64,000 nt of DNA. Source: Jaapia argillacea MUCL 33604 (taxonomy: Eukaryota > Basidiomycota > Agaricomycetes > Jaapiales > Jaapiaceae). The notes under the pieces were generated by a model. The model did not search any database. It had not been told where the DNA came from and was given only the letters and a program-made list of their open reading frames with translations. The stretch is taken from positions 12,192 to 76,191 of the forward strand of contig KL197742.1 of assembly GCA_000697665.1 (NCBI GenBank), given 5' to 3'. Below are positions 41,401 through 63,245 of the stretch, in pieces (positions within the stretch are counted from its first letter, which is position 1; the number at the start of each line of letters is the position of its first letter). The position numbers and the translations under genes are program-made.

Positions 41401-42124
41401 TGTGGTGGACGAGCGAGGGTTTTCGGGTGGATGTGGTCGAAGGGGAGGATTTTTGGTTTCAGTTTCGACGAGCTATAGTTGCGGTTCAACCCGTCAATTG
41501 CCATCCCAATATAAGAACAAAACATCAGCGTACCTCGTACCGGAGATTTGGGAACCACTAGATGGAGCATCAATTGTCTCATGCCCAGCCAACCTAACCA
41601 GTTCCTCTACCTCACACAACCTCTCCCCATACCAATCAACCCAACTCCCACATTCCTTGTCCACATCCACATCCTCTCCCTCCCCTCTTTGACTCTGTGT
41701 GTCTCTATACCACTCAAACATAGCCTCCAGCTTGGGTGTAGCCGAATGCAACGCCAAATTTATCTCCACCATCTCTTTCGCACTGGGGTCGGTGAGCCAT
41801 CCGTCTTTGAGTGCTGTTTGTAAGGCGAGGTGGTACGTCGCTTCGGGTGAACTGGGAGGGGGGAGGGAAGGATCTGTGAGGGCGTCAACCAGGGGGAAGA
41901 AGGAGGCAGGGTTCTCTAGGGCGATGGTTTCACTGAAATAAAGGGTATGAGTTGATGGTTCGATGGGAGCGAGAGGCATAGGATATTGGGGCTACTCACA
42001 TAACTTCGAGGAGGAAGGGCGGTGCGGACCACGAAGTTCGCAAGGAAACTTTTAATGGTGGACTAGTTGCAGCCCGAGTGGCGATGAAGAGCCATGGTAA
42101 GACGATGATACGTCGAAGTAACAT
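35460..42124 (-). CDS. UDP-glucose:glycoprotein glucosyltransferase (UGGT)
   Basis: A long minus-strand gene of many short exons, roughly 1,600-1,700 residues. UGGT is the ER folding sensor that re-glucosylates N-glycans on misfolded glycoproteins. The start at 42124 gives a signal peptide ([19 protein letters not shown]) followed by the thioredoxin-like sensor domains (38-42 kb; [15 protein letters not shown] near 41.3 kb). The C-terminal GT24 catalytic domain is clear: [31 protein letters not shown] with the DAD metal-binding motif (36584-36592), [18 protein letters not shown], and KTIDLCQNP. The protein ends HERDEL, an ER-retrieval signal. Decayed partial copies of its N-terminal half lie downstream of both CHAT genes. 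Exon borders are approximate. Confidence 0.93.
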
Positions 42125-42465
42125 CCTGCCAGTGCACTTGTCCGAGAGTTCAACAAACGGTCGTGCTGCGCCCCTCCAGTCACTAAGCGAGTGTGGTTCC
42201 TGTCAGGCTAAGCTCTCTATATTTGACGCGTCTAATGGGACAGTAAATGGTTGAAAATGCAGCAATGAATCACCACAAGGGCTGAGGTTGTCGAGGTACA
42301 AGGACACGTATCTGCCACATCGTCCTGTTGGGCAGCTGTAGACATGATCAAAGTCATCATCTCAACAACTCACATCTGGACAGTCCTCTGCCCATTGCTT
42401 GACATGAATTGAATCGCTGTTTTCATCCGGATTTCTCTCCTTCTAAATCGCTTCTATATACTCCA
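42125..42465. other. Intergenic upstream of UGGT
   Basis: This holds the UGGT promoter (minus strand) and the left edge of the first duplicated block. Nothing coding was seen. Confidence 0.4.
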
Positions 42466-42832
42466 TGTGTGAAGACGCTCTTATTCAGTCCACCGTCCAC
42501 CGTCGCAGCGTCCAAATCCTCTGCTATGATAGATCGAACCGACGCCGAATCCCTCAGATGCCCTCTCCCGACAAGATCACGCGGGCCTTACCCTCCTCCG
42601 GCGTCTCCTCAACAACCTCTCCGTCAGTATAGCCGCCCGCAGATCCGACGACTAACTTGGACACCACGGCTTCCTTGATATTTGTTGAAAACAACGAAGC
42701 ATCCGACCGCGAGGATTGTTTGGTGTTCGGGTTTGTTTGACCTGGGGTGCCACCAAAGGACGAGACATTGATAAGATCAGCTACATGATCGGGGAGAATC
42801 AAAGCGAAGCTGACCATATACTCCATAGGCAA
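42466..42832 (-). pseudogene. Duplicated fragment of unknown origin, copy 1
   Basis: The minus strand has an open frame (about 42832-42554) reading MPMEYMVSFALILPDHVADL, then GTPGQTNPNTKQSSRSD and GKARVILSGEG. The same text, slightly diverged, is at 54.4-54.75 kb. Its start abuts the end of the condensin fragment: condensin codons run to ALESDEV and then leave the parent sequence. No parent gene was found in this window and I do not recognise the family. Confidence 0.5.
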
Positions 42833-43385
42833 TGAAGACCCCTCGTGAAATTTGTGTAGGGAACCTCGTCAGATTCAAGCGCGGCAAGTGCAAGTTCGTC
42901 TGTCAACTTGAAAGTGGCGACGTTGATTTCCCATTTGCAGACCCTCTTCCTCTTCTTTGGCTCACGAAGCTTCGGCTTCAGATCCCTCCCCTTCGGCCAT
43001 CTCCTCGTCCTCCCCCTCGACTTGCATCGAGTCGTCTTCATCGTCAGGCCATTTACGCGATCTAAAAGTCGTGAAATCTCAGCAAGGCCCGGGAAACGAA
43101 GAAAACGGGCTAACCGTTTATCGCCATTACGCTTTTGGGCGCCCTCATCTCCGTTTGTTCCTCCTCCTCCTCCTCCTCCTCCTCCTCCTCCTCCCCCTCC
43201 CCATACCCCACTCCCCTCCTCTCAACAACCTTCCCAACCCCCCTCGAACCTCCCCAACTGCTCCCCAGTCCTCCTACGCCTCTTCTCCCGCTCCTCCCGC
43301 TCCTCCAATCCTCCATGCATCAACCAATACAGGTGCGTATCCACCGACTCCACAATCAACCCAATAGTGTTCTTCCTCGGCCCTG
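42833..43385 (-). pseudogene. Condensin (CND1) fragment, copy 1
   Basis: Minus-strand sequence matches condensin exon 4-5 (parent about 13.76-14.32 kb): RKNTIGLIVESVDTHLYWLMHGG at the top end, the acidic stretch in the middle, and LALAALESDEV at the low end. Where the parent encodes a Glu-rich run, this copy has a ctc microsatellite. The ends are abrupt: PH-gene sequence above about 43385 and unknown sequence below 42850. Frames are broken in places. Confidence 0.8.
43158..43196. repeat. (CTC)n microsatellite
   Basis: About a dozen ctc triplets lie within the condensin fragment, in the segment corresponding to the Glu-rich part of the parent. The segment is missing from the copy at 55 kb. 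Confidence 0.85.
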
Positions 43386-44475
43386 CACCTCCTCCCTCAA
43401 ACGAACAGGACAAACTCCCCATCCTAACCCACAAATCCTCCCCAGCCTGTGGATACTCCCCTCCACCTCCTCCCGCACTCCCAAAGAATACGCCTGAGGC
43501 GAACTTCCAAACCCATTTGCAAACAAACTCGGTGGCGGTGACAACGGTGAGGTAGGAACTGACATCGCCCCGCTTCCCTCCGTCCCAACTCTCCCACCGT
43601 TATTGCAGAGGGACGATCACCACCGCCGCCATGTCCCAAAGAGATATGGGCATTCCCTCCCACCGGGTGGCCTTGAGTGAACTTTGCGCATATAATCGAA
43701 TGTTTCGATTTCGTTTGATCCTCTGGGGTTGGTGGAAGGGTGGCGAGGGAGGAGGAGGCGACGGCCGCTTTTGAGAGATGCTCGGAACCGCGGAGGGCGT
43801 AGAGGGTCGAGACGAGCCGAAGTTGGCCCGAGGAGGGATCCTGTCAGGTGGGGAAGGAGAGTCAATGAACGATCGGGCCAGAAAGAAAGGGATTGGAGGA
43901 GGAGCCAAACAAGTGCTACGGGGGAAGAAATGTATTAATATCATACAAACGAAACATGTCTTCATATCTTTACAAAGCCTCAGCACCCGCCCGAAATAAT
44001 CACCCATCCTTCTCTCCACTCAATCTTGCTGTTCTTCTTTAAGGGTAAAGAGGGGAAACCCCGAACTGGGATTGTAGGGGAAGGACTGAAGGGAGAGAAA
44101 ATCGGGTTTTGACTTATCAGTCTGTTGGAGGAGGATGTCATTCTTGATGAGGTATCTTTCGTGGAGCTGCCTACATCGCCCGTCGATCAAAACAACAAAG
44201 GGTTGATAATGGTGTGGGTGTACGCACTGAATCCTCAAGACTCTGATCGTCCTGACTTCCCCTCGAAATAGGGCTCAAGGATGCCCCTATCGATCTTGAC
44301 GATCCGAGCAACAGGGTGCACCTCCAACAACTTGTAAGGCTGTGGAATGGCGAGAGCGGTGAAGTGATTGAGTATTGATAGCCCATCAGGCTACCCCGTA
44401 TGACGAACTTGAGACTCATCTCAACATCAATGCAGCGACCATGATGCGAAGACGACACACTGAGGAAACAGCTTC
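43386..44475 (-). pseudogene. PH-gene fragment with F-box remnant, copy C
   Basis: Read on the minus strand, this begins with an F-box remnant (about 44475-44380) containing ggggtagcctgatgggctat, the same junction as copy A at 0.2 kb. It then passes into PH-gene exon 1 (parent about 8.52 kb, internally deleted), exon 2 (LRLCKD near 43.98 kb), exon 3 (GSSRPSTPSAVPS; LWVRMGSLSCSFEG near 43.4 kb) and stops. It is joined there, in frame, to condensin sequence. Stops and indels exclude a full product. It lies head to head with the first CHAT gene. Confidence 0.8.
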
Positions 44476-44569
44476 GAGTCTGTGGTTGAACGCGCGGTCT
44501 TTCTTAAAATCAATCGAGTTGGATGAGCGCTCCTCGTGCTCACATTCATGGGCGGCAATCGCGACCATG

Positions 44570-44736
44570 TGATTGGCCATTCAGCTTCATTATTCTTATC
44601 AGCATCGACGAACTGGGCGAATCGATACAGATAAAGTTCGGATAGACACCAAGGCGACACCTTGGGAACGGAATCCGGGCGTTGCATGGCAATCCGCAAC
44701 CTCCCTCGCGGTCGGCCCTGTTCACCATCTACCACC
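44570..44736 (+). promoter_or_regulatory. Conserved upstream region of CHAT gene 1
   Basis: The 170 bp before the ATG are recognisably shared with the region before the second CHAT gene, including ggcgacacc and cggccctgttcaccat immediately before the ATG context accaccATGG. They begin where the PH fragment ends, so they are probably the original CHAT promoter. No TATA box could be assigned. Confidence 0.5.
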
Positions 44737-47700
44737 ATGGACCCTCTTCCGTACGTCCCTTCCTGCGTCGTTAGACAAGTACTGATATTGCGACATATCT
44801 GCAGAGTGATCCATCTTACAGGTGACTTTCTAGTTTGCATTCATGGCTCAAGTGTCTGACCCACAGACGCACTAGATTTCACAATCACATCGTTGCATGG
44901 CGGAGGTTCTTCGCCTCTCGACGATGCCCAGATATTCCTCCAGCTCACGCTGGATGGTGATGTCGTATATGAGACAGCGCGAGGCGAGAGAGAACCCGAC
45001 GAGCATGTGTGGAAGGTACAAGACCGTGTCAACGTGTGAGTTACATTCCTTCTCTTGTAGCTAGACGAGTTTGGGTAGACATGCTGACCTACCACCGTAG
45101 ACCTGATTTGGAGGATATTTCCCTATTCTCAATCGCAGTGATGCTTGACAGCGCCAGTCATATCACGACGCAACTCGGTTCCGTAGAGCTGACGAGCCAA
45201 GATATTCCAGCCAGTGGGCTGACATCGAGTTCGTACTATGGACTTCTGATTACCTCTGATTGCATTCTAATCATCTGAGTATCTGTAGAAATCACTCGAG
45301 ATCTCGCAGGTCTCAACATCATATTGGAGTTTTCCATCAACCACGGGCCCGATGGTCCAGGTTCTCCTTCGTCGCCGACAAGCATACATTGTGAACCTGC
45401 TGCACCAACTGGTACACCCGACACAGGTATGGATTTTGTCGCTGATGGTTCATTCACAGCCTTATCTACCCATTAGCAGATGTATGCAATACTCAAATAC
45501 TACCCGAGGATGAGAGGATAACTCCCTCCCAGATTATCGAGGGATTGGGTCCTGATTTCACCTATCCCAGTGCATTTATTGAACCGGATGTGGACAAGAG
45601 AGCAGCAATGCTTAATGCATTGGGTCATGTGCTACTGGGGCACTATAAAAACCATCACGGGATAGAGAGCCTAAATCGGGCAGTCGCGGTTTATACTGAG
45701 GCCGTACAGATGGTTGCCCCAGATAGCCCCCAGAAGTCAGTCTATCTGGACAATCTTGGTACTTCATTGGTGATCTGTTTCAATTGCCTCAGTGACATTG
45801 CCGACAACGACAATTCAATCTTGAACCTTCAGGATGCAGTACAACTCACTCCTGATGGCCACCCTGATAAGCCAGGCTGCCTGAACAATCTTGGCATTGC
45901 ATTGTGCCGCCGTTTTCAGCGTCTTGGTGATGTCACTGACATTGACAAGTCAATCTCAATGCTTCAAGATGCTGTGCAACTCACTCCTGATGGCCATCCT
46001 GGCAAACTAGGTCGTCTGAACAACCTTGGAAATTCATTGCTTCACCATTTTCTGCATCTTGGTGACATCACAAACATTGACAGGACAATCTCAACACTTC
46101 AGGATGCAGTGCGACTTACTCCTGATGGCCACCCTAACAAACCAGGCTGTCTGAACAAGCTTGGACATTCATTGCTCTGCCGTTTTCAGCATCTCAGTGA
46201 CATCACTGACATCAACAAGGCAATCTCAACACTGCAGGATGCAGTGCAACTTATGCCTGATGGCCACCCTGGAAAGCCAGGCTGTTTGAACAACCTTGGC
46301 ATTGCATTGTGCTGCCGTTTTCAGTGTCTCAGTGGCATTATTGATATCAACAAGTCAATCTCAACACTTCAGGATGCAGTGCACCTCACTCCTAATGGCC
46401 ATCCTGACAAGCCAGGCTATCTGAACAACCTTGGAAATTCACTACTTGACCGTTTTGAGTATCTTGGTGACATGGCCAACCTTGACAATTCAATCAGGGT
46501 GGGAGGAGATGCAGTGCAACTGACACCTGATGGCCATCCTGACAAACCAAGCCATCTGAGCAACCTCGGAAATTCATTGCGCCGCCATTTTCAATGTATC
46601 AGTGACATTCCCACAATCAACAAGGCAATCTTGGCACTTCAGAATGCTGTGCAACTCACTCCTGATGGCCATCCCAACAAGCCAGGTGTTCTGAACAACC
46701 TTGGCACTTCATTGGTACTCCGTTTCAATTGTCTTGGTGACATTGCCGACATTGACAAGTCAGTATCAACACTTGAGGATGCAGTACGACTCACTCCTGA
46801 TGGCCACCCTGAAAAGCCAGGTGTTCTGAACAACCTCGGAATTTCATTGCGCAGCCATTTTCAGCAACTTAGTGGCATTGCCTACATCAACAGGTCGATC
46901 TTGACACTTCAGGATGCTGTGCAACTCACTCCTAATGGTCACTCTACAAAGCCAGGTCATCTGGGCAACCTTGGGCATTCATTGCTCTGGCGTTTTCAGC
47001 ATCTTGGTGACATCACCGACATTGACAATTCAATCAGGGTGACAGATGATGCTGTGCAACTCACTCCCAATGGCCACCCTGACAAGCCAGGCCATCTGAA
47101 CAACCTTGGAAATTCATTGTTCCGCCGTTTTCAGCGTCTTGGTGACATTGCTGATATCGACAAGTCGGTATTGACACTCCAGGATGCCGTGCAACTCACA
47201 CCTGATGGTCACCCTGACAAGCCAGTCCATCTGAGCAACCTCGGAAATTCATTGCTTTGCCGTTTTGAGCGTCTCGGTAACATAGCCAACATCGACAATT
47301 CAACCAGGGTGAAAGAAGATGCAGTACAATTGACTCCTGATGGCCACCCTGAAAAACCAGGCCGTCTAACGAACCTCAGCACATCATTGTTTCGCCATTT
47401 TGAGCTTCTCAGTGACATTGCTGACCTTGAAAAGTCAATCTCAATATCTCGAGATGTGGTGCAACTCCTTCCTGATGGCCACCCTGCGAAGCCGGGCAGT
47501 CTGGACAACCTTAGCATTGCATTGTGTTGCCGTTTTGGGCATCTTGGTGACATCACTGACTCCGACAAGTCCATCTCCATAATTCAGGATGCAGTGCGAC
47601 TCACTCCCGATGGCCACCCTGGCAAGCCAACCCATCTGCGCAATCTCGGAAATTCACTGCTCTACCGTTTCGAGCATCTTGGTGACCAGGCCACTTTTGA

Positions 47701-49424
47701 ACTGGCCATGGAGACACTGTCCATTGCTGCACGGTCTAATGTGGGCTCTCCATCAGTTCGGTTTCAAGCTGGGATCATGTGGGCTCGATGGGCTCAGAAA
47801 ACTCATCACGCATCTCTGTTAATGGCAAATTCGACTTTGTTAGCCCTCCTACCCCAATTGGCATGGCTGGGGCTTCCGATGCATGAACGTCACCGTGAAC
47901 TTATAGAGGCAGGAAGTTTGGCCAGGGATGCAGCATCGGCTGCAATTGAGGCTGGACAATTTGAAACTGCTGTCGAATGGCTTGAACAAGGACGTTCAGT
48001 AGTTTGGGGCCAGTTGTCGCAGCTACGCACTCCAATTGATGACCTCCGACAGGTCCAACCCCAGCTGGCAGCTCGATTTACTCAGGTCTCGAATCAACTT
48101 CAGCAGACGAGCACCCCGTCTCATAAATCTGATGCTGGCAGTGACCAGCACTCCTTGGAAGAGGTCGCTCAGGAACACCGTCGACTCACTGCGGAGTGGG
48201 AAGCACTTTTGGGAGAGATCCGTGGAATCCAAGGTTTTGACAGGTTTTTGTTGCCAAGGTCATTCTCGCAGCTCAAGGGTGCTGCACACTCAGGCCCAGT
48301 TGTCATCCTCAATGTGAGCAATGTTCAATGTGATGCCCTTGTTTTGATGCCTGGCCTGGACGACGTGCTCCACATTCCTCTCCCCAATCTTACCCAATCC
48401 ATTGCCGAAGCCCTACAGAATGAGCTCAACAACTTACTTTCTGAACCTGGCCGTCTGCCATCGCAGTTGGAGAGGCCGGTCAGAAGGAGGCCACTGGCAC
48501 TCGATTACAATTCAAGGTTCAAAATGATCCTTGCTCAACTCTGGTCCGACCTAGTCAAACCTATCCTCGACATGCTAGCCATGACAGTCAGTTTTCCATT
48601 TCCAATTCCTTGTGCTGTTCTCGGGAACTGACTTACTACAGTCTCCGCCCAGTAACCCTACCCGTGTTTGGTGGTGCCCAACTGGCCCACTTGCCTTTCT
48701 TCCCATCCACGCCGCTGGCATTTATGACACCCCAGATCCTGGGAACTGCATCTCTGACTTTGCCATCTCGTCATACATACCAACGTTGAGCACACTCATT
48801 GACAATCCCCAGGTTACCACACCACACCCTTTCCAGCTACTCGCCGTTGCCCAGCCAAATGCACCCCACCACAGTCCCCTTCCAGGGACTGGGAAAGAGC
48901 TCAAGCTCATCGAAAATCGTGCAGAAGGCGTCCGTTTTGTGCCTCTCATGGATGGTGCAGCCACTATGGAGAATGTGCTTCGCCACATGGGCGAATCCAC
49001 CTGGGTACACTTTGCGTGTCACGGGGTGCAAGATGTTTCCAACCCCACCGACAGTGGCCTCATCCTTACCAATGGATCTCGGTTGAAACTCTCCGCCATC
49101 ATCGATCTCTCCCTTTCGCATGCTGAGTTGGCATTTCTCTCCGCGTGCGAGACCGCTACGGGTTCGAAAGATCTTCCTGAGGAGGCAGTTCACCTGGCAG
49201 CAGGAATGTTGTTGGCTGGTTATCGTGGGGTTATTGCGACGATGTGGTCAATTGGAGACTCGGACGCCCCTCGCATCGCAGATGATGTCTACTCTCACAT
49301 CTTGATGGGAGGAAAACCAGACTATACCCAAGCTGCGCTTGCTTTGCATCAGGCTGTGCGGCGACTCCGTTCGCAAGGGGCATCCTTTCTCTCTTGGGTG
49401 CCATACATCCACATTGGGTTCTAA
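44737..49424 (+). CDS. TPR-CHAT protein 1 (C2-like, TPR array, CHAT peptidase)
   Basis: Seven exons (44737-44750, 44805-44821, 44867-45035, 45101-45228, 45289-45426, 45480-48586, 48642-49424) join in phase to 1451 residues. Residues 1-160 look like a C2-type beta sandwich: ALDFTITSLHGGG, AQIFLQLTLDGDVVYETARG, DISLFSIAVMLD. An array follows of 14 clear 42-residue repeats plus a divergent leading one, typed as LTPDGHPDKPGHLNNLGNSL, a TPR-like helical solenoid. A linker (AVEWLEQGRSVVWGQLSQL, about 1000) leads to the CHAT domain with VHFACHGVQ (His1318) and AFLSACETATG (Cys1360), then GYRGVIATMWSIGD. CHAT is a caspase-like clan CD peptidase; bacterial TPR-CHAT proteases act in defence and cell death. 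A sensor role here is inference. The last intron (48587-48641) splits the CHAT domain. Confidence 0.9.
45720..47690 (+). repeat. 126-bp tandem repeats coding TPR-like units, gene 1
   Basis: Roughly 15 direct repeats of 126 bp (42 codons) centre on actcctgatggccaccctg. Units differ at many positions, including non-synonymous ones (FQHLSDIT, FNCLGDIA, FELLSDIA), so this array is moderately diverged compared with that of gene 2. Confidence 0.85.
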
Positions 49425-49879
49425 TGGCAGCCCGAAACAATGTTGGGATGGTTGATTTCCCTCATGACGGTGTGGGCATCGGTACTAAGGCTCCCTCACT
49501 ACTAAGTACGATAGCACTAGTACTTGGTTCCCTTTTGTGCTGGACTATTTTTCGGATCGTAGTGTGGATGTACATCTGCTGTGGTATCTTTCTTGAAGTG
49601 TTCGTCAATCTGTGTGTAGATCAAGCTGAATGAAAAGTAATGATTTGACCGGAATTTTTGGTTTGGCCGGGCTGGGAGTGAGGTCGCTCACGATATTTAA
49701 AAATAATAACTTAGGGCCGCATTGTTTCGACGGAGGTGGGTGAACAAACGGTCTCCGATTCCTTGACTCCTTTATCAGCGCCGTTTAGTCTGTTTCGCAG
49801 CCCACTCAGTTCAAAAGAGTGTTGTTCGCTCTGCGATCCCCGAAGGACGCGATGAATAAATGAAAGAGAGGAGTACAAG
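49425..49879. other. 3' region of CHAT gene 1
   Basis: The first 250 bp are close to the region after the second CHAT gene (shared atggttgatttccc, gtacgatagcactagtactt), consistent with a conserved 3' UTR. The remainder, up to the UGGT fragment, shows no coding sequence. Confidence 0.55.
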
Positions 49880-51720
49880 CGCAGCCGCTCCATGGCTCCA
49901 ACGCAATCGATCGACAAGGACGAACCTTCTGATGCCAGCAAATTCATGATACACATCGGCGTCAAGAGCGCCACCTCATTCCAGGTCGTCCTCGTTCATG
50001 ACTAACGTTTGCAGTGCATTGTTGGATGTCGTGATCAGTGAATATTGGCTTACGAAGCGGAAGAGGCGTGACCACGAGACAAGAGGGGGCTAGAAAAGAT
50101 GTAGAGCAATGAATGCATTTGGTCGATGTGGTTGGAGGCAATTGAGGTGTCTCGAAGGTTGTGGATGAAGTCAATACGAGTGAGAGGTTTGGGCGCCTAG
50201 TCGGGGAAAGTCGCGATCAGGAGAGTGTAGCGAAAGGATAGTTGAAACGGAGCTGACCATAGGCCATTATCCAATCTCGGTTTGAATATTCCTCGAGAAA
50301 TCCCATAAAAGGCTAATAAGAAACGATGCCCACCTTCTCAAATGCCAACCGAAAGCCTAAACGCAAAAAATGAAGTGAAGGAAAGAGAAAAGTAACGGAG
50401 ACGTACGTCGTCCATGTGAAAAGGTTTCCCGTTCACAAACGATGTGCCAACTCTCCGCCGCTACGAACGTCTACACCCAACCTCATAAGCCCTAGCCTTG
50501 GCCAACCCCCCCACCCACCACCCCTAACCACGCCGACCAAATCGCGCCAAACGAAACTCTCAGACTCGGAGTCAGCGAGAACGAGGGCGTCGTGCCCGGA
50601 ACGTATGGTAGACCGATTGATGGACGTAGCAGTTGTCTGAAATTGTGACACCTACAAATCAAAGCGGGCGATACGTGTCAGTATGCGCGTATCGATGAGC
50701 GAGGAGGAGGGCCCAAACTTCTTAAAGAACCCCATTGACTTCGCTCTCTCGAATTTCCCGATCATATAATAAAATAACCTCCCCAATTTCTGATCTACAC
50801 CCGAATCAAGCAATGAATAGCTCAACGCTCACATCCCGCATCTTCCTTTGGCAAAGGAAGGGAAGAAACATACCTTCTTCGTTCGACAAAATAGGAACGA
50901 TTCCCTACCTGAAATCGAAGCTTCTCTGACCCACAGCCTGTCTCAAACAATTGACACCACTCGTTTTTGAAAGGTCAGGAACGGCGAAGAAGTTAAGAAG
51001 TTATGTTTGGTCCGTGGAAAGCCGCCTTGGGTATAGACGACGGAGGAGCTAGATATATGCGCACGAAATTAGCAGAGAGAAAAAGGAAGAAGGGAGGGAC
51101 ACTCACAACTTCCAAAGACTCGCTCCATCTCTCGGACCTACGCTCCCATCCATTATCAGCTCAAACCCCATACCACAGACACGGAACCAAAGAAATAATC
51201 TCACCTACAATAGTTCTTCAGATCGTTCCACCAAAATACCGCGCCACCTCCCTCTTGTCTCTTACCGGCATCGAACGACCCTTCCAATATACCAACCTCT
51301 TCTCGCGCAGTGGCGATGGGGTTAACAAAGCGATGCTTGCAATTGGCGAGACGTCAGAGACCGAGAGGACGAGTGGACGTTCGGGATGCAAAAGCCGGAG
51401 GAGCCTATCATCCTACGGAATTGAAGTTGAGACAGATTAGATGAGATGGAGGGTAAACGACCCGCTCAACTCAGCCACAGCACACTAACTCCACCTCGGA
51501 CCTGACATAGAGGGTTGCTATATGTTGTGGACGTGGGAGGGTTTTTGGGCGGATGAAGCGATCTTGAGTCTGACTCAGTTTCGGCGAGCTATAGCCACAA
51601 GCCAAATCATCAGCTGTCGTTCTGAGTTTACGGAGAAGAAAAATAGCAGAACGTCAAACTCACCATCAACAGCTACTTATCAACGTTCGCATAGGTGCCC
51701 TCTACACATTTTGGAGTGTT
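49880..51720 (-). pseudogene. Decayed UGGT fragment, copy 1
   Basis: The minus strand follows UGGT from about 38.6 to 41.6 kb in order but with deletions and stops. Matches include the segment coding DADVYDEF (near 49.95 kb), the tccaatctcggtttg..attcctc stretch (50.27 kb, parent 39.43 kb), the cgcgccaaacga segment (50.54 kb), and ttgtggacg..gagggtttttgg (51.53 kb, parent 41.4 kb). Neither the catalytic domain nor the signal peptide is present. It cannot make a functional enzyme. Confidence 0.8.
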
Positions 51721-51769
51721 AGGGATGCAATCAATTTAGGCGAGTTTAGACTCGTCCCAACGCATCGCG

Positions 51770-52520
51770 TCTCCACAAGCGTCCACAATCAAACAAACCC
51801 AGATCAGCCGGTACTCTCAGCACTGGTTCACGCAGTTGGGGGCAAGAGGGAAAAAGTACGTTTCTTCTCGGTGTTTCAATTTTGTCATGGAGAGCTGACA
51901 ATAAAAAACGGCAGCTCGAAGAGAAAGTTAGGCATCACCGAGGGAAACTGGAGAAGACCGGGCAGAGGTTGGATAGTTAGGCTTCGGAGAAGGATTGAGT
52001 TAGGTGAGGCCCCTCTCTTACTTTCCATGTTCTTCCATCCATCTCACGACGAACCTGGTAACCCCTATAGTCAATTACATAGCCACGGAAGATCTACTTG
52101 ATACCCTCTCCAGGCTGGTATAGATCAACGTGATTTAGAACGAGTGATCAAGTTGAAAGAGGTTCAGGGGTATGACCGAGGGTTTTTCCTGGTGAAACGT
52201 CCATGTATACCCCCGCACTTCTTGGTTTTGGTCCCCATTATGAGCTCTTAGTGATTGATTTGGTTTGTAGGCGTTTGGGGACGAGTGGTGGGGCTGTGCG
52301 GACGTATCCAGCAAAAATACGAAGCTGTAAACTCGATGGTGTCGGGGAAGAATATAGGGTGCTCTAACAGATGGGAGTCCACGAGATACAATGATGTATT
52401 AAGGATAAGATAAGTTGATGTATCATGCTAAAAGGATCCACGAGAGAGAGGCTACCTGCGACTTTCAAGCAGGTAACGGGCACCCCACGTGACTCCTTCA
52501 AACACAAGAGATCCCACCCT
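51770..52520. other. Inter-block spacer, left part
   Basis: Plus-strand text near 51.84-51.97 kb could be two small exons (GKREK, then after a gt..ggcag gap LEEKVRHHRGKLEKTGQRLD, coiled-coil-like), but stops follow at once. The rest holds no gene I can support. Confidence 0.4.
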
Positions 52521-54190
52521 GACCACAGTAGGGTGAATCAACTTGATGGCTTGATTGAACGCGCCAACATTAACGATTGCAGAAGACGGAGGGATGGTCG
52601 AACGCGTCCCAATCTGTTCACATACAGGTCATCTCCAGTTGATCGATAGCGGCAGACATTGAAAGTACTTACTTTGGAGGAAGCGAAGGAGGACGCAGGC
52701 CGGTGAACGGTTGGAGAGTAGAGAGCAAAGATCCCCTCGTACGGATTTTGAAGTTGACATCGATTAGATTCGGCCACGCATATGCTACTCTCGATGTCAG
52801 CATATGCCCACGTCCATCCATCCTCTTGAGCAACAGCGAAGCCAAGGTGTACAAACTTCAAGGGGCGGAGAGAAAGTACCCGTCTCAAGAAGGTCGTCAG
52901 GTTTGAAGGACCGTCTAAGGTACACTCTGACGAACAGAAGGAGGTCGAGCGAGATAACCGCTCGTACGCGGGGATGTCAAGTGACCTGAGACCGTCCCCG
53001 CTGGGATCGTCTATCGACTGGATGCTGCTAAGTTAAACCGATACCAACAGAAGTTGAACGTAGTGTTAGGTTCGACTTTGCGGATGGGCGACTCGCGATA
53101 GGAACGCCAGAAGAGCTCAATGGCGTGACAGGCAACGTGGACAGTGAGGGGGGCTGACAAGTAAAATTTAGATGTCAGTAAAGTGAAATCGTAGAGGAAA
53201 TGGGAGTGCGTGGAAGTCGAACGTACCCATCTGGAAATCGATACTTCCCACACATGATCAAGGAGTAGGCGCGAAGATAACGACATGCTATGTTTACCTG
53301 TAATTGTCCCCGCACGACGAATCTGGCAAGGAAAGGTATTCTGTATCTCGCGGAAACATCAAACGTCGGGAGCCTCTCCACCAACCGTGATACAACGCAC
53401 AAAGGCGGTCCAGATGTGACACTGGATATGGAGCGCAGCGCAATCGGATATTACTCTGCGCCAGTGCTGCCATGCTCGTGCGCTAACGCAAAAAACCTGG
53501 ATAGAAGTGCATCATCAATCACCGGCGACCGACATCAAGCGGCGAAAAAAATCACAACTCACCCTAGCCCCAATTTCTCAGGGCCAAGATCAATTGCTTC
53601 GGCCATTACGAACCTGCCACCTGATTTTCGGGCGATGATAATGGAGGAGGGCGATGCCACCAGGTCACCGAGATGGCGTAGGCTCGATCGATGTCTGGCG
53701 ATGACGATGGGAGGTGTGTCAACGGGTAAGCAGTGGGCGTTGTATATCACCGAACAGGCGGGGAGAGGCGGTCCTGTTGCGATAGCAATGGTCGACCGAC
53801 GGTAGCTAAAAAAGAGTAAAAGAGATAAGGGTTTGAGAACAGCAACGAGGCACTCACTGGCTCGTCAATTGCCGCCTCGCAATCACTCTCATCAGCCCTC
53901 GTCATCTGAACTGCCTTCGAACTCCAAGCTGTCCTGTTTTCGCTCAAATAATTGCACCAGACTAGTACAGAGTTAACGATCGCTCCTACGGTGAGCCTGT
54001 GCAAGGTCATTTCCCAAGGGCTCGAGATGAACGAGAGGCAGTTGTTCTTGTCTATGTCCATTGAGAGAAATAAATGAGCCCATTTCACACTCACATTTTT
54101 TAAGTATCCCCCATGTCCGTATGCTAACCACAAACAGCTGCTATCGTTTGGTTATGCCAAATGGCTATGTCCGTCCTCCCCAGCATGGTA
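52521..54190 (-). pseudogene. Possible eroded multi-exon gene of unknown function
   Basis: Several minus-strand pieces look coding and are separated by GT..AG gaps. About 54135-54080 reads WLAYGHGGYLKN. About 54050-53860 reads SFISSPWEMTLHRLTVGAIV, with hydrophobic NSVLVWCNYL, ending before a gtgagt. About 53815-53560 reads IYNAHCLPVDTPPIVIAR then GRFVMAEAIDLGPEKLGLG, again before gtgagt. Further pieces lie at 53.0-53.4 and 52.5-52.9 kb. No complete phase-consistent model could be built and no family is recognised. It may be a real, diverged gene or a remnant. It lies in the unique spacer between the two duplicated blocks. Confidence 0.3.
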
Positions 54191-54387
54191 TATTATGATC
54201 AAATTTAGATGGCTATTTCAACAATATGTCAGGTAGGGTTATCCTCACCCATCTGCGTGAATGAAGAACGATGCTCACTTCGTCGGGTGGCATTTTTCTT
54301 GGCGGCAGCCTACGCTCAGACTGCAGTTCCTGGCCTTACAACAGAGTGTAAAACTCCGCCCCCGATTGCCCAGCGCCTCCATGTGTG

Positions 54388-54747
54388 AACACGATCTTGT
54401 TCAGCCTCCCGTCCACCGTCGCAGCCTCCAATCCTCTACCATAATAGATCGAACTGACGCCGAATCCCTCGGAAGCCCTCTCCCGACAAGATCACGCGAG
54501 CCTTACCGTCCTCCAGCATATCCTCAACAAGCTCTCCATCAGCAGAGCCACCCACAGATCCGACAACCAACTTGGACCCCAGGGGTTCTTTGGTATTTGC
54601 TGAGAATAACGAAGCATCCGACCGCGAGGATTGTTTGGCGTTCGGGTTTGTTTGACCTGGGGTGCCACCAATGAACGGGGCATCGGTAAGGTCAGCTCCA
54701 TAATCGGGGGGAATCCAAGCAAAGCTGACCATATCATCCATAGGCAA
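54388..54747 (-). pseudogene. Duplicated fragment of unknown origin, copy 2
   Basis: A minus-strand open frame from 54747 reads MPMDDMVSFAWIPPDYGADL, GTPGQTNPNAKQSSRSD and GKARVILSGEG, parallel to copy 1 at 42.5-42.8 kb. The frame has stayed open for about 100 codons in both copies despite substitutions. Origin and function are unknown. Confidence 0.5.
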
Positions 54748-55110
54748 TGAAGACCCCTCGTGAAATTCGTATGGAGTACATCGTCAGATTCAAGTGCGGC
54801 GAGTGCAAGTTCGTCCGTAAAAGCGGCGACGTTGATTTCCGATTGGCGGACCTTCTTCTTCTTCTTAGGCTCGCGACGCTTCGGCTTCAGATCCCTCCCC
54901 TTCAGCCACCTCCTCGTCCTCCCCGTCGACTTGCATCAAATCGTCTTTATCGTCAAGCCGTTTAGGCGATCTAAATGTCGTGAAATCTCAGCAAGGCCAT
55001 ACCCCATACCCCTCTTCTCAACAACCTTCCCAATCCCCCCTCGGACCCGTATCCACCGACTCCACAATCAACCCAATAGTGTTCTTCCTCACCCCCGCAC
55101 CTCCTCCCTC
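54748..55110 (-). pseudogene. Condensin (CND1) fragment, copy 2
   Basis: This is the same fragment as at 42.83-43.39 kb but more deleted: the microsatellite and part of the Glu-rich segment are missing (the join lies near 55000). The PH/condensin junction at about 55108 is the same as in copy 1, so the junction predates the block duplication. A stop next to the junction breaks the chimeric frame that is open in copy 1. Confidence 0.75.
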
Positions 55111-56215
55111 AAATTAACAAGATAAACTCCTCGAAGCCTACAAATCCTCCCAAGCCTGTAAATATCCCCCTCCTCCCCGCACTACCAAAAGAATACGCCC
55201 GAAGCGAACCAACAAACCCACTGGTCAATAAATTCGGTGGCTGTGACCATAGCAAGGCGGGCGCAGACATCACACCGCCAACCCCCTGTCCCGACTCTCC
55301 CACCATTATTCCTAGTACCAGCAAATGGATGATCACCAGCTCTGCCATGTCCCAAAGAGAGATGGACATTCCGTCCCACCGGGTGGCCTTGGGTGGACTT
55401 TGCGCATATAATCGAATGTTTCGACTTCGTTCGATCCTCTGGGGTTGATGAGAGGATGGCAGAGGAGACAACTGATTTTGAGCGATGCTTTGAGCCGCGG
55501 AAGGCGTGGAGGGGCGAGAGGAGCCATGATTGGCCCGGGGAAGGATACTGTCAGGTGGGAAGGAGAGTTAATGAGTGATCGGGCCAGTAAGAAAGGCATT
55601 GAAGGAGTAGCCAAACAAGTGCTACGGGGAACAAAGGTATCACCTTCCGATCTGAACAAAGCCCGAAATAACCACCCACCTCTCTCCACTCCATCTCACC
55701 GCTCTTCTTTATCGGTAAGGAAGGTGAACTCCGTACTGGGATTGTCGGTGAAGGATCTGAAAAGGGCAGAGACTCGGGTTTTGACGTCATTAGTCTATTG
55801 AAGGATGAGACTATCGATGTGGCGCCTTTTCGTTGGTCTGCCTACACCATCCGTCAAGCGAAACGACATAAGGGTTTAACGAAAGAAGCAAAAAGAGAAG
55901 AAGGTGTACACACGAATCCCTGACCTCTTTCCAAACGACTCTGAGCATTCTAACCCTCCCCTCGAAATACAGCTCAAGATACTTCAAGTTGGCAAGGACG
56001 CCGCTGTGATCTTGACGATCCCACAGACAGGATGCACCCCCCAACAACTCGTAAGTCTGTAGCCCATCAGCTACCACGCCAAGGTGTATTCATCTTGGAG
56101 GATACGGGCGGTGGAGGAGGAGAGGAGGGTGAAGAGCGGATAGTGGAATGGCGAGAGGATGGCGAGGGGTAGGACGAGGGAAGGAAGGAAGGGATTGAGG
56201 CCTCAACGTTGATAG
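55111..56215 (-). pseudogene. PH-gene fragment, copy D
   Basis: The minus strand follows the PH gene from exon 1 (FEGRVRMLRVVWKEV near 55.93 kb) through exon 2 (LPIKKSGEMEW near 55.70 kb) into exon 3 (PPNLLTSGFVGSLRAYSFGS near 55.2 kb). It ends at the same junction with condensin as copy C. Frameshifts and stops interrupt it. Around 56.08-56.20 kb it keeps more of exon 1 than copy C does. Confidence 0.8.
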
Positions 56216-56289
56216 GCTGACGAACTACAGGCTCGTGTTGATGCACGTTGATGGGCGGCAATCGCCCATCGCTCTATCGCTACCATGCA

Positions 56290-56465
56290 ATTGGCCGTTG
56301 AGCCTCATTATTTGAACCAGCAATGACGAATTCGTCGAATCGATATACTAAGATAAAGACGTGAAGGCGACACCTCGGGAATGGAAAGCGACGGGCGCTG
56401 CGTGGCAATGCAGCTGTGAAAATTCCAACCCTCCTCGCAGCCGGCCCTGTTCACCATCCACCACC
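56290..56465 (+). promoter_or_regulatory. Conserved upstream region of CHAT gene 2
   Basis: This is homologous to 44570-44736: shared gcgacacct, cggccctgttcaccat and the accaccATGG start context. It has more indels than the coding part. No core element can be assigned. Confidence 0.45.
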
Positions 56466-59400
56466 ATGGACCCTCATCCGTACGTGCCTTCCTGCGTTGT
56501 TAGACAAGCACTGATTTGCGCCATTTTCTGCAGAGTGATTCATCTTACAGGTGACTTCCTATTAGCTTGCAGCCACGTCTCAAGCGTCTGATCCCCAGAT
56601 GCACTAGACTTTACAATCATGTCATCGCATGGCGAACATTCTTCGCTTCTTGACAATGCCCAGATATTCCTCCAGCTCACGCTGGATGGCGATGTCGTAT
56701 ACGAGACATTGCGAGGCGAGAGAGAACCCAACAAGCAGGTGTGGAGGGTGCATGACTGTGTCAACGTGTGAGTTGCATTGCTTGTCGTGTCGCTGGAAGA
56801 GTTCGGGGACACGCGTTGAACTACCACCGTAGACCCGACTCCGATGATATTTCCCTTTTCTCAATCACAGTGATGCTCGACAGCGCGAGTCATATCACAA
56901 CGCAAATCGGTTCCGTCGACCTCACCAGCCAAGATATTTCAGCCAAGGGGCAGACATTGAGTGTGTATTATGTACTTCTGAGTGCCGCTAATTCCCTTCT
57001 AATCATCCAAATACCTGCAGAAATCACTCGAAATCTTGTATGTCCCAACATCGTATTGGAGTTTTCAGTCGGCCGCGGGCCCGATGGTTCAAGCTCTCCT
57101 TTGTCGCCAAAAAGTGCACATTGTGAACCTGATGCAGCAACTGGTACACCGCTCAACACAGGTACGGATTTCGTTGTCAATGATTGATTGACAGCCTTAT
57201 CTATGTGTTGGCAGATGTGGACAATAAACAAACACCACTTTCTGATGATGAGAGGATATCTTCCTTACAGATCAATGACGACCTGGATTTCAAGGTCCTG
57301 GATTCCATCTACGCCAGTACACTGGTTGAACCAGATGTGGAAAAAAGAGCAGCAATGTTGAATGAGTTGGGTGACAGGTTATTGAGGCACTATCAAAACC
57401 ATCACAGGTTGGAGAGTCTACACAGGGCAGTCTCAGTTTATGCAGATGCAGTACAGATGGCTGCCCCAGACAGCCCCCAGAAGTTCATCTATCTGAATGA
57501 CCTTGGCACCTCATTGCAAAGCCGTTTTGAGCACCTCGGAAACATCACCGACATTGACAAGTCAATCTTGACACTTCAGGATGGTGTACGACTCACTCCT
57601 GATGGTGACCCCAACAAGCCAGGCTATCTGAACAATCTCAGCATCTCATTGCTCTGCCGTTTTGAGCATCTCGGTAACATCACTGACATTGACAATTCAA
57701 TCAGGGTGCAAGAGAATGTTGTGCAACTCACTCCTGATGGCCACCCTAACAAGCCAGGTCGTCTAAACAACCTCGGAAGTTCATTGCTCTATCGTTTTGA
57801 TCGTTTTGGTAACATCACCGACATCGACAATTCAATCAGGTTGCAAGAGGATGCCTTGCAACTTACTCCTGACGGTCACCCTGACAAGCCAGGCCATCTG
57901 AGCAACCTCGGATGTTCTTTGCTCCGTCGCTTTGAGCGTCTCGGTAACATCACCGACATCAACAATTCAATCAGGGTGCAAGAGGATGCCATGCAACTCA
58001 CCTCTGATGGCCCTGGCAAGCCAGGCCATCTGAATAACCTTGGAAGTTCTTTGCTCCGTCGCTTTGAGTGTCTTGGTAACATCACTGACATCAACAATTC
58101 AATCAGGGTGCGAGAGGACGCCTTGAGACTCACTCCTGATGGCCACCCTGGCAAGCCAGGCCGTCTGAGCAACCTCGGAAGTTCATTGCTCCGTCGTTTT
58201 GAGCGTCTCAGTAACATCACTGACATCGACAATTCAATCAGGGTGCAAGAGGATGCCTTGCAACTCACTCCTGATGGTCACCCTGACAAGCCAGGCCGTC
58301 TAAACAACCTTGGAAGTTCATTGGGCTGTTGTTTTGAGCGTCTTGGTAACATCACCGACATCAACAATTCAATCAGGGTGCGAGAGGATGCCTTGCAACT
58401 CACTCCTGATGGCCACCCTGACAAGCCAGTCCATCTAAGCAACCTCGGAAGTTCATTACTCCGTCGTTTTGAGCATCTCAGTAACATCACCGACATTAAC
58501 AATTCAATCAGGGTGCAAGAGGATGCTGTGCGGCTCACTCCTGATGGCCATCCTGACAAGCCAGGCCATCTGAACAACCTCGGAAGTTCATTGCTCCATC
58601 GTTTTGAGCATTTCGGTAACATAACCGACATCGACAATTCAATCAGGGTGCAAGAGGATGCCTTGCAACTCACTCCTGATGGCCACCCTGACAAGCCAGG
58701 CCATCTGAGCAGCCTTGGAAGTTCATTGCTCCGTCGCTTTGAGCATCTCGGTAATATCACCAACATCAACAATTCAATCAGGGTGCGAGAGGAGGCTGTA
58801 CGACTCACTCCTGATGGCCATCCTGGCAAGCCAGGCCATCTGAACAATCTTGGTGGTTCATTGCTTCGACATTTTGAGCATCTTGGTAATATTGCCGACA
58901 TCGACAATTCAATCAGGGTGCGAGAGGATGCTTTGCGACTCATTCCTGATGGCCACCCTGCCAAGCCAGGGGGTCTGAACAACCTTGGAACTTCATTGCT
59001 CCGTCGTTTTGAGCGTCTCGGTAACATCACTGACATCGACAATTCAATCAGGGTGCAAGAGGATGCTGTACACCTCACCCCTGATGGCCACCCTGGCAAG
59101 CCAGGCCATCTGAACAACCTCAGTAGTTCATTGCTCTACCGTTTTGATCGTCTTGGTAACATCACCGACATTGACAATTCAATCAGGGTGCAAGAGAATG
59201 CCTTGCAACTCACTCCTGATGGCCACCCTGACAAGCCAGGCTATCTGAGCAACCTTGGTGGTTCATTGCTCTGTCGTTTTGAGCATCTCAGTAACATCAC
59301 CGACATCGACAATTCAATCAGGGTGCGAGAAGATGCCTTGCAACTCACTCCTGATGGCCACCCTGACAAGCCAGGCCATCTGACCAACCTCGGTGGTTCA

Positions 59401-61300
59401 TTGCTCCATCGTTATCACCATCTCGGTAACATCACCGACATCAACAAATCAATCAGGTTGCGAGAGGATGCTGTGCGACTCACTCCTGATGGCCACCCTA
59501 ACAAGCCAAGCTATCTGAAAAACCTCGGAAATTCATTGCTCTGCTGTTTTGAGCATCTCGGTGACCAGGCCATTCTTGCACTGGCCATTGAGGCACTGTC
59601 CACCACTGCTCTGTTTAATGTGGGCTCTCCATCAGTTCGGTTTCGAGCTGGAATTGCATGGGCTCAACAGGCCCAGAAAATTCATCACACATCCCTGTTA
59701 ACGGCATATTCCACTTTGTTAACCCTCCTACCCCAATTTGCATGGCTAGGGCTCCCAATGCATGAACGCCATCGTGAACTCACAAAGGCAGGAAACCTGG
59801 CCAGAGATGCAGCATCGGCTGCAATTGAGGCTGGACAATTTGAAACTGCCATTGAATGGCTTGAGCAAGGACGGTCGGTTGTTTGGGGTCAGTTGTTGCA
59901 GCTACGCACTCCAATCGATGAACTCCGACATGTCCAACCCCAGCTGGCAGCTCGATTTACTCAGGTCTCGAATCGACTTCAGCAGACAAGCACCCCATTC
60001 CGTACATCTGAGGCTAGTGACCGCCACTCATTGGAAGAGGTCGCTCGGGAACATCGTCGACTCACTGCGGAGTGGGAAGTGATTTTGGGAGAGATTCGCG
60101 GAATCGAAGGTTTCGGCAGGTTTTTGTTGCCAAAGCCGTTCTCACAACTCAAAAGTGCTGCTCGTTCTGGCCCGGTCATCATCCTTAACATGAGCAATGC
60201 TCGATGCGATGCCCTTGTTTTGATGCCTGGCCTAGACGACGTGCTTCACATCCCTCTCCCCAATCTTACCCAAGCCGTTGCCGAAGCCCTACAGAATGAG
60301 CTCAATGACTTACTTTCCGAACCTGGTCGTCTGCCATCACAGTTGGAGAGGCCGGTCAGAAGGAAGCCACTGGCACTTGACTACAATTCAAAGTTCAAAA
60401 TGATCCTTGCCCGACTCTGGTCCGATGTGGTCAAACCTGTCCTGGATGCACTAGCCTTTACGGTTAGTATTTCATTTCCAATTCCTTGTGCTGTTCTTGG
60501 GATCTGACTCACTACAGTCTCCGCCCAGTAACCCTTCCCGTATTTGGTGGTGCCCAACTGGCCCACTTGCATTCCTTCCCATCCACGCCGCTGGCATTTA
60601 TGACGCCCCAGATCCTGGGAACTGCATCTCCGACTTTGTCATCTCGTCATACATACCAACGTTGAGCACGCTCATCGACAATCCCCAGGTTACCACACCA
60701 CACCCTTTCCAGCTGCTCGCTGTTGCCCAGCCAAATGCACCCCACCACAAGCCCCTTCCAGGGACTAGGAAAGAGCTCAAACTCATCGAAAATTGTGCTA
60801 AAGACATCCATTTTGTGGCTCTAATAGATGACACGGCCACCGTGGAGAATGTCCTTCGCCACATGGGCAAATCCACCTGGGTACACTTTGCGTGTCATGG
60901 GGTGCAAGATATTTCCAATCCCACCGATAGCGGCCTCATTCTTGCCAATGGATCTCGGTTGAAACTCTCCGAAATTATCAATCTTTCCCTGTCTCATGCT
61001 GAGTTGGCTTTTCTCTCCGCGTGCGAGACCGCTACCGGTTCCGATGATCTTTCCGAGGAGGCTGTTCACTTGGCGGCAGGGATGCTGTTGGCTGGTTATC
61101 GTGGAGTTATTGCGACAATGTGGACAATTGGAGACAGGGATGCTCCTCTGATTGCGGATGATGTTTATTCTCACATCTTGATGGGAGGAAAACCAGACTA
61201 TACCCAAGCTGCACTTGCTTTACATCAGGCGGTGCGGCGACTCCGTTCGCAAGGGGCATCCTTTCTCTCTTGGGTGCCATACATCCACATTGGGTTCTAA
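56466..61300 (+). CDS. TPR-CHAT protein 2 (C2-like, TPR array, CHAT peptidase)
   Basis: This has the same seven-exon structure as its paralogue (56466-56479, 56534-56550, 56599-56767, 56833-56960, 57021-57161, 57215-60462, 60518-61300), joining in phase to 1499 residues. The extra 48 residues are mainly one more repeat: 15 clear copies of the 42-residue unit plus a divergent leading one. One copy lacks a residue (TSDGPGKPG). Most units are nearly identical (NITDIDNSIRVQEDALQLTP). The CHAT domain keeps VHFACHGVQ (His1366) and AFLSACETATG (Cys1408), so activity is plausible. The N-terminal C2-like part is kept (AQIFLQLTLDGDVVYETLRG). Both genes look intact and could be expressed. The repeat surface is the natural candidate for ligand or partner recognition; that role is inference. 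Confidence 0.9.
57460..59560 (+). repeat. Highly homogeneous 126-bp tandem repeats, gene 2
   Basis: About 16 direct repeats of 126 bp have long identical runs between units (for example gacaattcaatcagggtgc and actcctgatggccaccctga occur again and again). Differences are concentrated at a few codons per unit. Such uniformity suggests recent amplification or gene conversion. Confidence 0.9.
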
Positions 61301-61799
61301 TGGCAGCCCGAAACGATGTTGGGATGGTTGATTTCCCCGATGACAGTGTGGGTGTTGGTACTAAGGCTCCCTCACTAAGTACGATAGCACTAGTACTTGG
61401 TCCCTTTTTGTGCTGGACTTTTTTTGGATTGTAGCGTGGATGTATGTCTGTTGTAGTATCTCTCTTGAAGTGTTCGTCGATCTGTCACGGTGTGTAGGCC
61501 AAGCTGAATGAAAAGTAACGACTCGGCTGGAATTTCGGTATGGTTTGGTTTGGTTAGGAGTGAGGTTATTCACGATGTTGAGCAACACTGACTTGGCTGC
61601 ATTGTTTCGTCGGGTTGACAATCGGTCGACCAACGAACTCATTGCAACGAGTATCGTCACAGGCTGTGCACGTCATCCTAGTATTGTGGAGGCACGGATG
61701 AGATTTTCAGAGGCTCCGAACCGTTTGTAAGTTAGAAGCAGACTCAACCGTTCAACAGAATCGACTCTGGTGTGATTGCGATCGGGGCTTTCTGACTTT
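61301..61799. other. 3' region of CHAT gene 2
   Basis: The first 250 bp parallel the region after CHAT gene 1 and are probably 3' UTR. Further on, a 61-codon plus-strand frame (61545-61730) has no recognisable content. Confidence 0.5.
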
Positions 61800-63245
61800 C
61801 GCCCCATTCAGCCGACAGTCTCGAGGAGGGAGATAGCTGAATGCAAGAGACAAGAATAAGTGCTGCTGCTACAGGACTCAACCCAATTGATCGACGAGGG
61901 CCCCACTCGTCCTAACAAATTCATTGTACACATTCAACGTCGGGAGCACCACCGCTGTTTGCAACCTATTGTTGGGTATCGCAATTTCGGAAAACGGGCC
62001 TAAGACGCGGCGGAGACATGACTTCGAGAGTTTGTACAGGAGAAAGAGATGCGACTTGAGCGATCGATGCATTTCGTCGACGCGACGGAGGGAGGTGAGG
62101 CATCTGGAGGGTTCTGGATGAAGCCAGTACGAGCGAAGGAGTCTATCGTATTACGGAATTGAAGTTAAGATGAATTAAGATGAGACGGAGGGTGAATGAC
62201 GTACCAAGAAGGATTCAACTCTTCTTCCCCTACAACCTCTCCATTCAACCGCAGTGCACTGACCCCGCCCGCACCTTCGCAACCTAGTTATGCCTGATTT
62301 CTTGAAACTCCCACCAGAACGCGATGTCTGAGCTAGTTTGGATAGCGTTGTGAGAGGGTTGCTTGAGGAAATGATAGACTGCGTATTGCTGGACGGTAGA
62401 GGTGGGTGGGTGATCGAAGCAGAAATGAAAAGAGAAGAAGGGCAGACCTAGCAGCTCGTCTTCCGTTTTGAATCCAGGGTGTTTTTATCTGGTGCTGGGT
62501 AGCTTTCCCTCGATTCCAAGATCGAGTCTGCCACTTCTTCTGACGACTCGTCGACACCCCGACCTCCAGATTATGTCCCTGCTCAAAATAAACTCGCATG
62601 AACGCCGGAGGGTGGATGGAAGAGAAGAGAGAGCGTACCAGATGGCTTTGAACCGGAATGTCTGTCGTCTATTGTCCAGCGCTAAATAGTCCATCTTAGC
62701 CACACTGTACCCTGATAAATGGTTCCTGCCCACGCGTCCATCGCCATCTTTCGAAGCAGGAGGCGCCCACTTCAAAACATACATCGGAGTCACCTCCATC
62801 CGACAAGCCATAGATATACGAATGAAGAGCACGGAAGTTGGAAGAAGAGGGAGGGGCGTGGAGGATCGTCGTGTATTTTGGACGAGTGAGGGTTTTGGGG
62901 TGGATATGGTCGAAGGGGAGGGTTTTCGGTTTCGATTTTGAAGCGCTATAGATACAGGCCAAATCGTCAACGGTCGTTCTAAGTCTTAACGGCAGAACGA
63001 CAGCTTACCTCGTCCCAGAAGTTTGAGAACCGTTAGATGCCTCTGCCCACTGCCAACCTGACCACCCCATTCACCCTCTCCCCTTACCAGCCAACCGGGC
63101 CCAATTACTATGTACCTTGTCCACATCGACACATTCTCGCCCTCCCTCCCATCTTCGACTCTGCGCATCCATATACCACTGAAAGTGAAACAAAGGCTCC
63201 AACTTGGCAGTGGGTGCAACGCCAAATGTGTGTCCACCACGTTTT
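61800..63245 (-). pseudogene. Decayed UGGT fragment, copy 2
   Basis: Minus-strand matches to UGGT run in parental order: LYKLSKSCLRRVLG near 62.0 kb (parent 38.8 kb), the region near 62.1-62.6 kb (parent 40.6-41.1 kb), [18 protein letters not shown] near 62.9 kb (parent 41.4 kb), and HLALHPLPSWSLCF near 63.2 kb (parent about 41.75 kb). The middle is largely deleted compared with copy 1 (49.9-51.7 kb). No functional product is expected. Confidence 0.8.

Follow-up and report, generated by a model that had tools for sequence, protein, structure and literature searches.

CHAT-domain proteases are described as activators of fungal gasdermins in passages of PMC10197012 and PMC12881547, and the passage in the latter cites Clave et al. 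(2022) for gasdermin activation in Podospora anserina by a CHAT protease that bears TPRs. According to the passage in PMC10197012, 19% of fungal gasdermin genes lie no more than 10 kb from CHAT genes. CHAT is also found together with TPR in Csx29 of the type III-E CRISPR system (Craspase), and is named in the target of a bacterial hypermutating system in a passage of PMC10907252. Here we analyze a 64,000-nucleotide stretch of the Jaapia argillacea MUCL 33604 genome (contig KL197742.1, C34:12192-76191 of a 43.7 Mb, 95-contig assembly; hereafter the window) that carries two genes, A and B, which judged from their sequence are real, intact and of this known TPR-CHAT kind (Table 1). On balance, we lean towards reading A and B as sensor-proteases that act in non-self recognition or in regulated cell death and belong to a large fungal family.

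Like the Podospora protein as those passages present it, A and B combine TPR-type repeats with a caspase-like CHAT protease in a fungal host; they differ, in a comparison by description and not by sequence, in having an extra conserved N-terminal segment and no PF04598 partner found. Csx29 shares with A and B the TPR and CHAT regions, the same fold (predicted from A's CHAT exon) and aligned His and Cys residues, whereas the NCBIfam Csx29 model gives 47 and 51.4 bits, below its cut-off of 300, and identity is 16-20% in the Foldseek rows. The best CHAT segments of actinobacterial proteins (for example, L046 of Kibdelosporangium and L103 of Amycolatopsis) are 35-46% identical to those of A and B. 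L103 differs by what precedes CHAT, namely a caspase domain and a P-loop match (NPHP3_N) that stays below cut-off; one open frame at L103:1549-6798 holds the caspase domain, this weak P-loop match, 45-residue repeat units and CHAT. Finally, agaricomycete NOD-like receptors (NLRs), which carry C2 plus Goodbye-like N-termini in the relevant part of PMC9815663, resemble A and B as large fungal families that join an N-terminal module to a repeat sensor. They differ from A and B, in which Pfam matches at E up to 10 include neither NACHT nor NB-ARC and the N-terminal segment is without C2 similarity. At five places in the genome, a C2 and a NACHT match share a strand, with starts separated by 1.4-1.6 kb, a spacing that C2-bearing NLR genes would be expected to show.

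The original prediction of two intact seven-exon genes with identical phases is confirmed by the spliced models. Both models, built from the sequence, are complete, with intron phases 2,1,2,1,1,0, GT-AG introns of 45-65 nucleotides (nt) and no internal stops. Spliced alignment recovers this start, these phases and introns 1-5 in five of nine stretches from other copies (L011, L014, L019, L027 and L031). One L010 stretch gives five exons in a similar layout, and the other L010 stretch, L013 and L030 align in part, with stops in L030. Intron 4 of gene B (56961-57020, 60 nt) is open in frame, so that its retention would add 20 residues; its counterpart in gene A runs into a stop if read through.

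The CHAT exons of A and B match PF12770 with 135.7 and 138.5 bits, respectively, against a curated cut-off of 24, and their His and Cys residues align with those of Csx29. This pair does not vary in any of 34 aligned rows (2 from the window, 32 bacterial) or in the 11 rows of another CHAT alignment. The His/Cys motif is also present in 20 of 20 CHAT regions fetched from the genome, one of which has a stop between the two residues, and all 20 regions are matched in the pre-CHAT segment by tblastn. The predicted model of A's CHAT exon (predicted local distance difference test, pLDDT, 81.3; predicted template-modelling score 0.83) has structural matches to Csx29, DdvA, SAVED-CHAT, separase and caspases in Foldseek and VIA-align, and the domain is accordingly predicted to have a caspase/separase-type fold. 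The earlier claim that CHAT keeps its His and Cys is thus upheld by the Csx29 alignment and the 34 invariant rows, and the structure prediction that had been proposed alongside it returned a caspase-type fold. We infer that the CHAT domains of A and B are proteolytically active.

Ahead of CHAT lies an array of 45-residue units, 15 in A and 16 in B, with a 135-nt spacing and one 132-nt step in B. TPR_10 scores 32.2 bits on A's long exon (cut-off 27.5) and 25.6 bits on the whole A protein; unrelated Pfam families score in a similar range on repetitive arrays, and Pfam alone is thus weak evidence for TPR. A hidden Markov model (HMM) built from the fungal units detects the repeat in 67 of 80 actinobacterial CHAT frames, with a modal spacing of 45, and in none of 80 shuffled frames. 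The 13 frames missed by this HMM comprise eight short ones (≤306 residues before CHAT) and five long ones. A phmmer search with the repeat exon against the PDB gave no matches at 0.001. Together, the 45-residue units, the TPR_10 score on A and the unit shared with bacterial frames substantiate the long TPR-type array noted earlier, and the array reads as TPR-like 45-residue units.

When A and B are compared part by part, the ratio of replacement to silent substitution rates (dN/dS) takes values of 0.185 (CHAT), 0.232 (pre-CHAT segment), 0.367 (linker plus first unit), 0.469 (array) and 0.527 (N-terminal segment), the array value being only a guide given that the two arrays are out of register. 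CHAT is strongly constrained (29.5 replacement changes over 589.5 sites versus 44.5 silent changes over 190.5 sites; Fisher p ~5e-12), and constraint on the N-terminal segment is weakly significant (p 0.02). The inner repeats show no A-B register, with a mean nucleotide identity of 0.727 in register versus 0.733 one unit off, and standing out in their rows are just the A-B repeat pairs at the two ends, the first at 0.76 and the last at 0.81. Within genes, repeat nucleotide identity is 0.796 in B and 0.707 in A, indicating that B's units are more alike. We then considered the eight most variable positions, chosen from 62 units of seven other copies, with the two end units of every gene left out. 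At these positions the ratio of replacement to silent polymorphism (pN/pS) among A's 13 units is 1.06 (bootstrap 0.85-1.30) versus 0.44 elsewhere, and among B's 14 units, one of which has 44 residues and is partly out of register, it is 1.65 (1.06-4.08) versus 0.30 elsewhere. Random sets of eight positions score as well in 6 of 200 draws for A and 1 of 200 for B. On the seven discovery copies the test is circular and gives mixed results, random sets doing as well in 4 to 15 of 200 draws for five copies and in 28 and 26 for L011 and L013. The ratios are unstable when a copy has few silent changes, and stops occur in six of these copies. This pattern is consistent with a variable surface and falls short of proving positive selection.

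The family to which A and B belong is large. At least 50 CHAT matches were found in the genome, a lower bound in which a split gene may count twice. Counting A and B, 11 places in the genome carry the N-terminal segment, and at 10 of these a CHAT match follows within ~9 kb downstream; at the eleventh (C34:118668), 3951 of the 8001 fetched bases are N. In a CHAT tree of 17 genome rows and 12 of the 32 bacterial rows, which carries a long-branch warning, the fungal and bacterial rows separate (100/99) and ten members of the A/B subfamily group together (100/98). The tree does not resolve A and B as sisters, that is, as mutual closest relatives. Clustering of the neighbours of 80 bacterial CHAT relatives gave no convincing recurrent partner gene, PADLOC models had no match on gene A's long exon or CHAT exon (the two pieces tested), and no paper on the A/B subfamily turned up in the open-licence literature searched.

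The N-terminal segment is spread over five exons, and the order of its beta-like stretches invites a C2 label. The original prediction called it C2-like and proposed that it gives membrane targeting. Neither proposal gained support from any sequence test run. Specifically, Pfam C2 (PF00168) at E up to 10 matched neither the segment alone nor any of nine aligned rows, and a PDB profile search with the segment gave no C2 match. Comparison by hhalign with four C2 domains stayed at background relative to fold, shuffled and reversed controls, the shuffled ones often scoring higher. Comparison with seven C2 stretches of the same genome was also at background and had little power, since the four C2-C2 positive controls also scored low (Prob 0.4-2.8). 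A genome-wide C2 search gave 21 places, and these do not include any of the 11 places of the segment. A C2 identity, being at background in the Pfam, PDB profile and hhalign tests, is thus not supported by sequence; given the weak positive controls, the segment may still be a divergent C2 domain.

In the sensor-protease reading that we favor, the array of TPR-like units would recognize a non-self or altered-self molecule, and binding would be relayed via the conserved pre-CHAT segment to the CHAT domain. The His/Cys pair would then cleave a partner, for which a cell-death executor is the most likely candidate, and the N-terminal segment may dock the protein or its partner. This reading agrees with the predicted fold, the retained His and Cys, the constraint on CHAT versus the turnover of repeats, the size of the family and the printed precedents of Podospora and of gasdermin clustering. 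It is this part of the earlier proposal that finds support; C2 targeting is unsupported and the gasdermin link was not found. The evidence for a TPR array has two weak points. TPR_10 reaches just 17.4 bits on B's long exon, under the Pfam TPR cut-offs, and the AlphaFold model of the repeat exon (two rows) has a pLDDT of 46 with the array mostly as strands, which we judge to be a failed model and not counter-evidence to TPR.

A different function would follow if A and B were CHAT proteases of stress or developmental signalling, in which the array binds host partners and cleavage tunes a regulator, by analogy with DdvA. TPR arrays commonly bind host proteins. DdvA, a bacterial transmembrane anti-sigma factor that is CHAT domain-containing per its PDB entry, is the best structural match by Z (19.9 and 19.2), and the lack of a genome match to the gasdermin model PF04598 also agrees with such a role. 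However, the DdvA match mirrors a shared fold, which shows no function, and a housekeeping regulator would not usually come with some 50 CHAT matches, several copies that carry stops and turnover of its repeats. We consider a signalling role unlikely.

The stops themselves could instead indicate that the CHAT family is in birth-and-death decay without a selected recognition role, A and B merely happening to be open. Among 12 subfamily members examined, seven have in-frame stops, which fall in the array or in the CHAT exon (L011, L013, L014, L016 with L031, L018, L027 and L030), four are open (A, B, L010 and L019), and L021 is not callable, with 6002 of its 9901 bases N. L018 and L021 are counted here by CHAT sequence only, and a thirteenth member at C21:689-694k lies outside the 12. 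In addition, 13 of the 50 genome CHAT matches hold a stop, introns not being excluded. The apparent lack of gene parts in L018, L021 and L030 was dropped from consideration as these stretches hold long N runs; the runs total 3231 bases in L018, 6002 in L021, 1176 in L027 and 3951 in L030, and missing parts there are uninterpretable. Against decay stand the strong A-B constraint on CHAT and the retention of all six introns between A and B, and we regard it as quite improbable for these two genes.

With respect to gasdermins, a genome search with PF04598 was empty at E up to 1, a weak absence as the model may miss fungal gasdermins, and Pfam showed no pore-forming family among ten other window frames, none of which lies directly between or beside A and B. 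The earlier remark was that no gasdermin-like gene was recognised in the window. A contracted gasdermin pathway, in which the substrate of A or B would be a gasdermin-like protein whose gene lies elsewhere in the genome, draws on the precedents in the passages of PMC12881547 and PMC10197012, but given the empty, if weak, PF04598 search we hold it to be very improbable.

Self-comparison of the window places A and B in duplicated segments, with 44558-47683 matching 56276-59427, 45839-49733 matching 57721-61613 and, upstream, 42461-43089 matching 54377-54998. Pieces of the UDP-glucose:glycoprotein glucosyltransferase region recur after A and B (39426-40473 with 50270-51304; 40886-41478 with 62380-62951), thus the duplication unit extends past the two CHAT genes. 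Inverted partial copies of left-window sequence (8521-9625, 13757-14152) lie upstream of A and B (43004-44197, 55136-56157). Pfam matches in the ten selected frames identify as neighbours condensin subunit 1, PIP5K, separase, NMD3 and UDP-glucose:glycoprotein glucosyltransferase, which together with the short introns of A and B are in keeping with a fungal genome. The separase gene (21379-23079, minus strand; Peptidase_C50, E 2e-82) encodes another caspase-fold protease in the same window.

Table 1. Features of genes A and B in window coordinates; the last row gives genome contig positions.
Feature	Position	Strand	Remarks
Gene A, 7 exons	44737..49424	+	1451 residues; spliced frame open
Gene A exons	44737-44750, 44805-44821, 44867-45035, 45101-45228, 45289-45426, 45480-48586, 48642-49424	+	spliced model
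Gene A N-terminal segment, unclassified	44737..45426	+	conserved across 9 aligned rows
Gene A linker and ~15 TPR-like 45-residue units (approximate boundaries)	45480..47737	+	135-nt spacing; TPR_10 32.2 bits
Gene A conserved pre-CHAT segment (approximate boundary)	47738..48586	+	84% A-B identity; dN/dS 0.23
Gene A CHAT exon	48642..49424	+	PF12770 E 2.9e-39; His codon 49020-49022, Cys codon 49146-49148
Gene B, 7 exons	56466..61300	+	1499 residues; spliced frame open
Gene B exons	56466-56479, 56534-56550, 56599-56767, 56833-56960, 57021-57161, 57215-60462, 60518-61300	+	spliced model
Gene B N-terminal segment	56466..57161	+	75% identity to that of A
Gene B linker and ~16 units (45 residues, one of 44; approximate boundaries)	57215..59616	+	135-nt spacing
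Gene B conserved pre-CHAT segment (approximate boundary)	59617..60462	+	A-B comparison
Gene B CHAT exon	60518..61300	+	PF12770 E 4.1e-40; His codon 60896-60898, Cys codon 61022-61024
Duplicated segment with gene A	42461..49733		similar in pieces to 54377-61613 with gene B (self-comparison)
C2 and NACHT pairs	C6:176696/178151, C6:205880/207332, C6:188137/186628, C40:246730/248172, C5:1731166/1729618	same strand per pair	genome profile matches

Non-self recognition in fungi beyond the ascomycete models is poorly understood; for example, a passage of PMC9815663 gives 23% of NLR N-termini as annotated in basidiomycetes versus 72% in ascomycetes. As a tentative and rather doubtful proposal, TPR-CHAT genes may form a second, NLR-independent receptor repertoire in fungi of this kind, with dozens of copies per genome, a cross-kingdom 45-residue repeat, inner units that are shuffled and homogenised for new recognition surfaces and, in one subfamily, an N-terminal module not described before. 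The common 45-residue unit ties the fungal to the actinobacterial families. If A and B are indeed sensor-proteases, this genome would offer candidate receptors by the dozen, and their triggers and substrates would be directly searchable.

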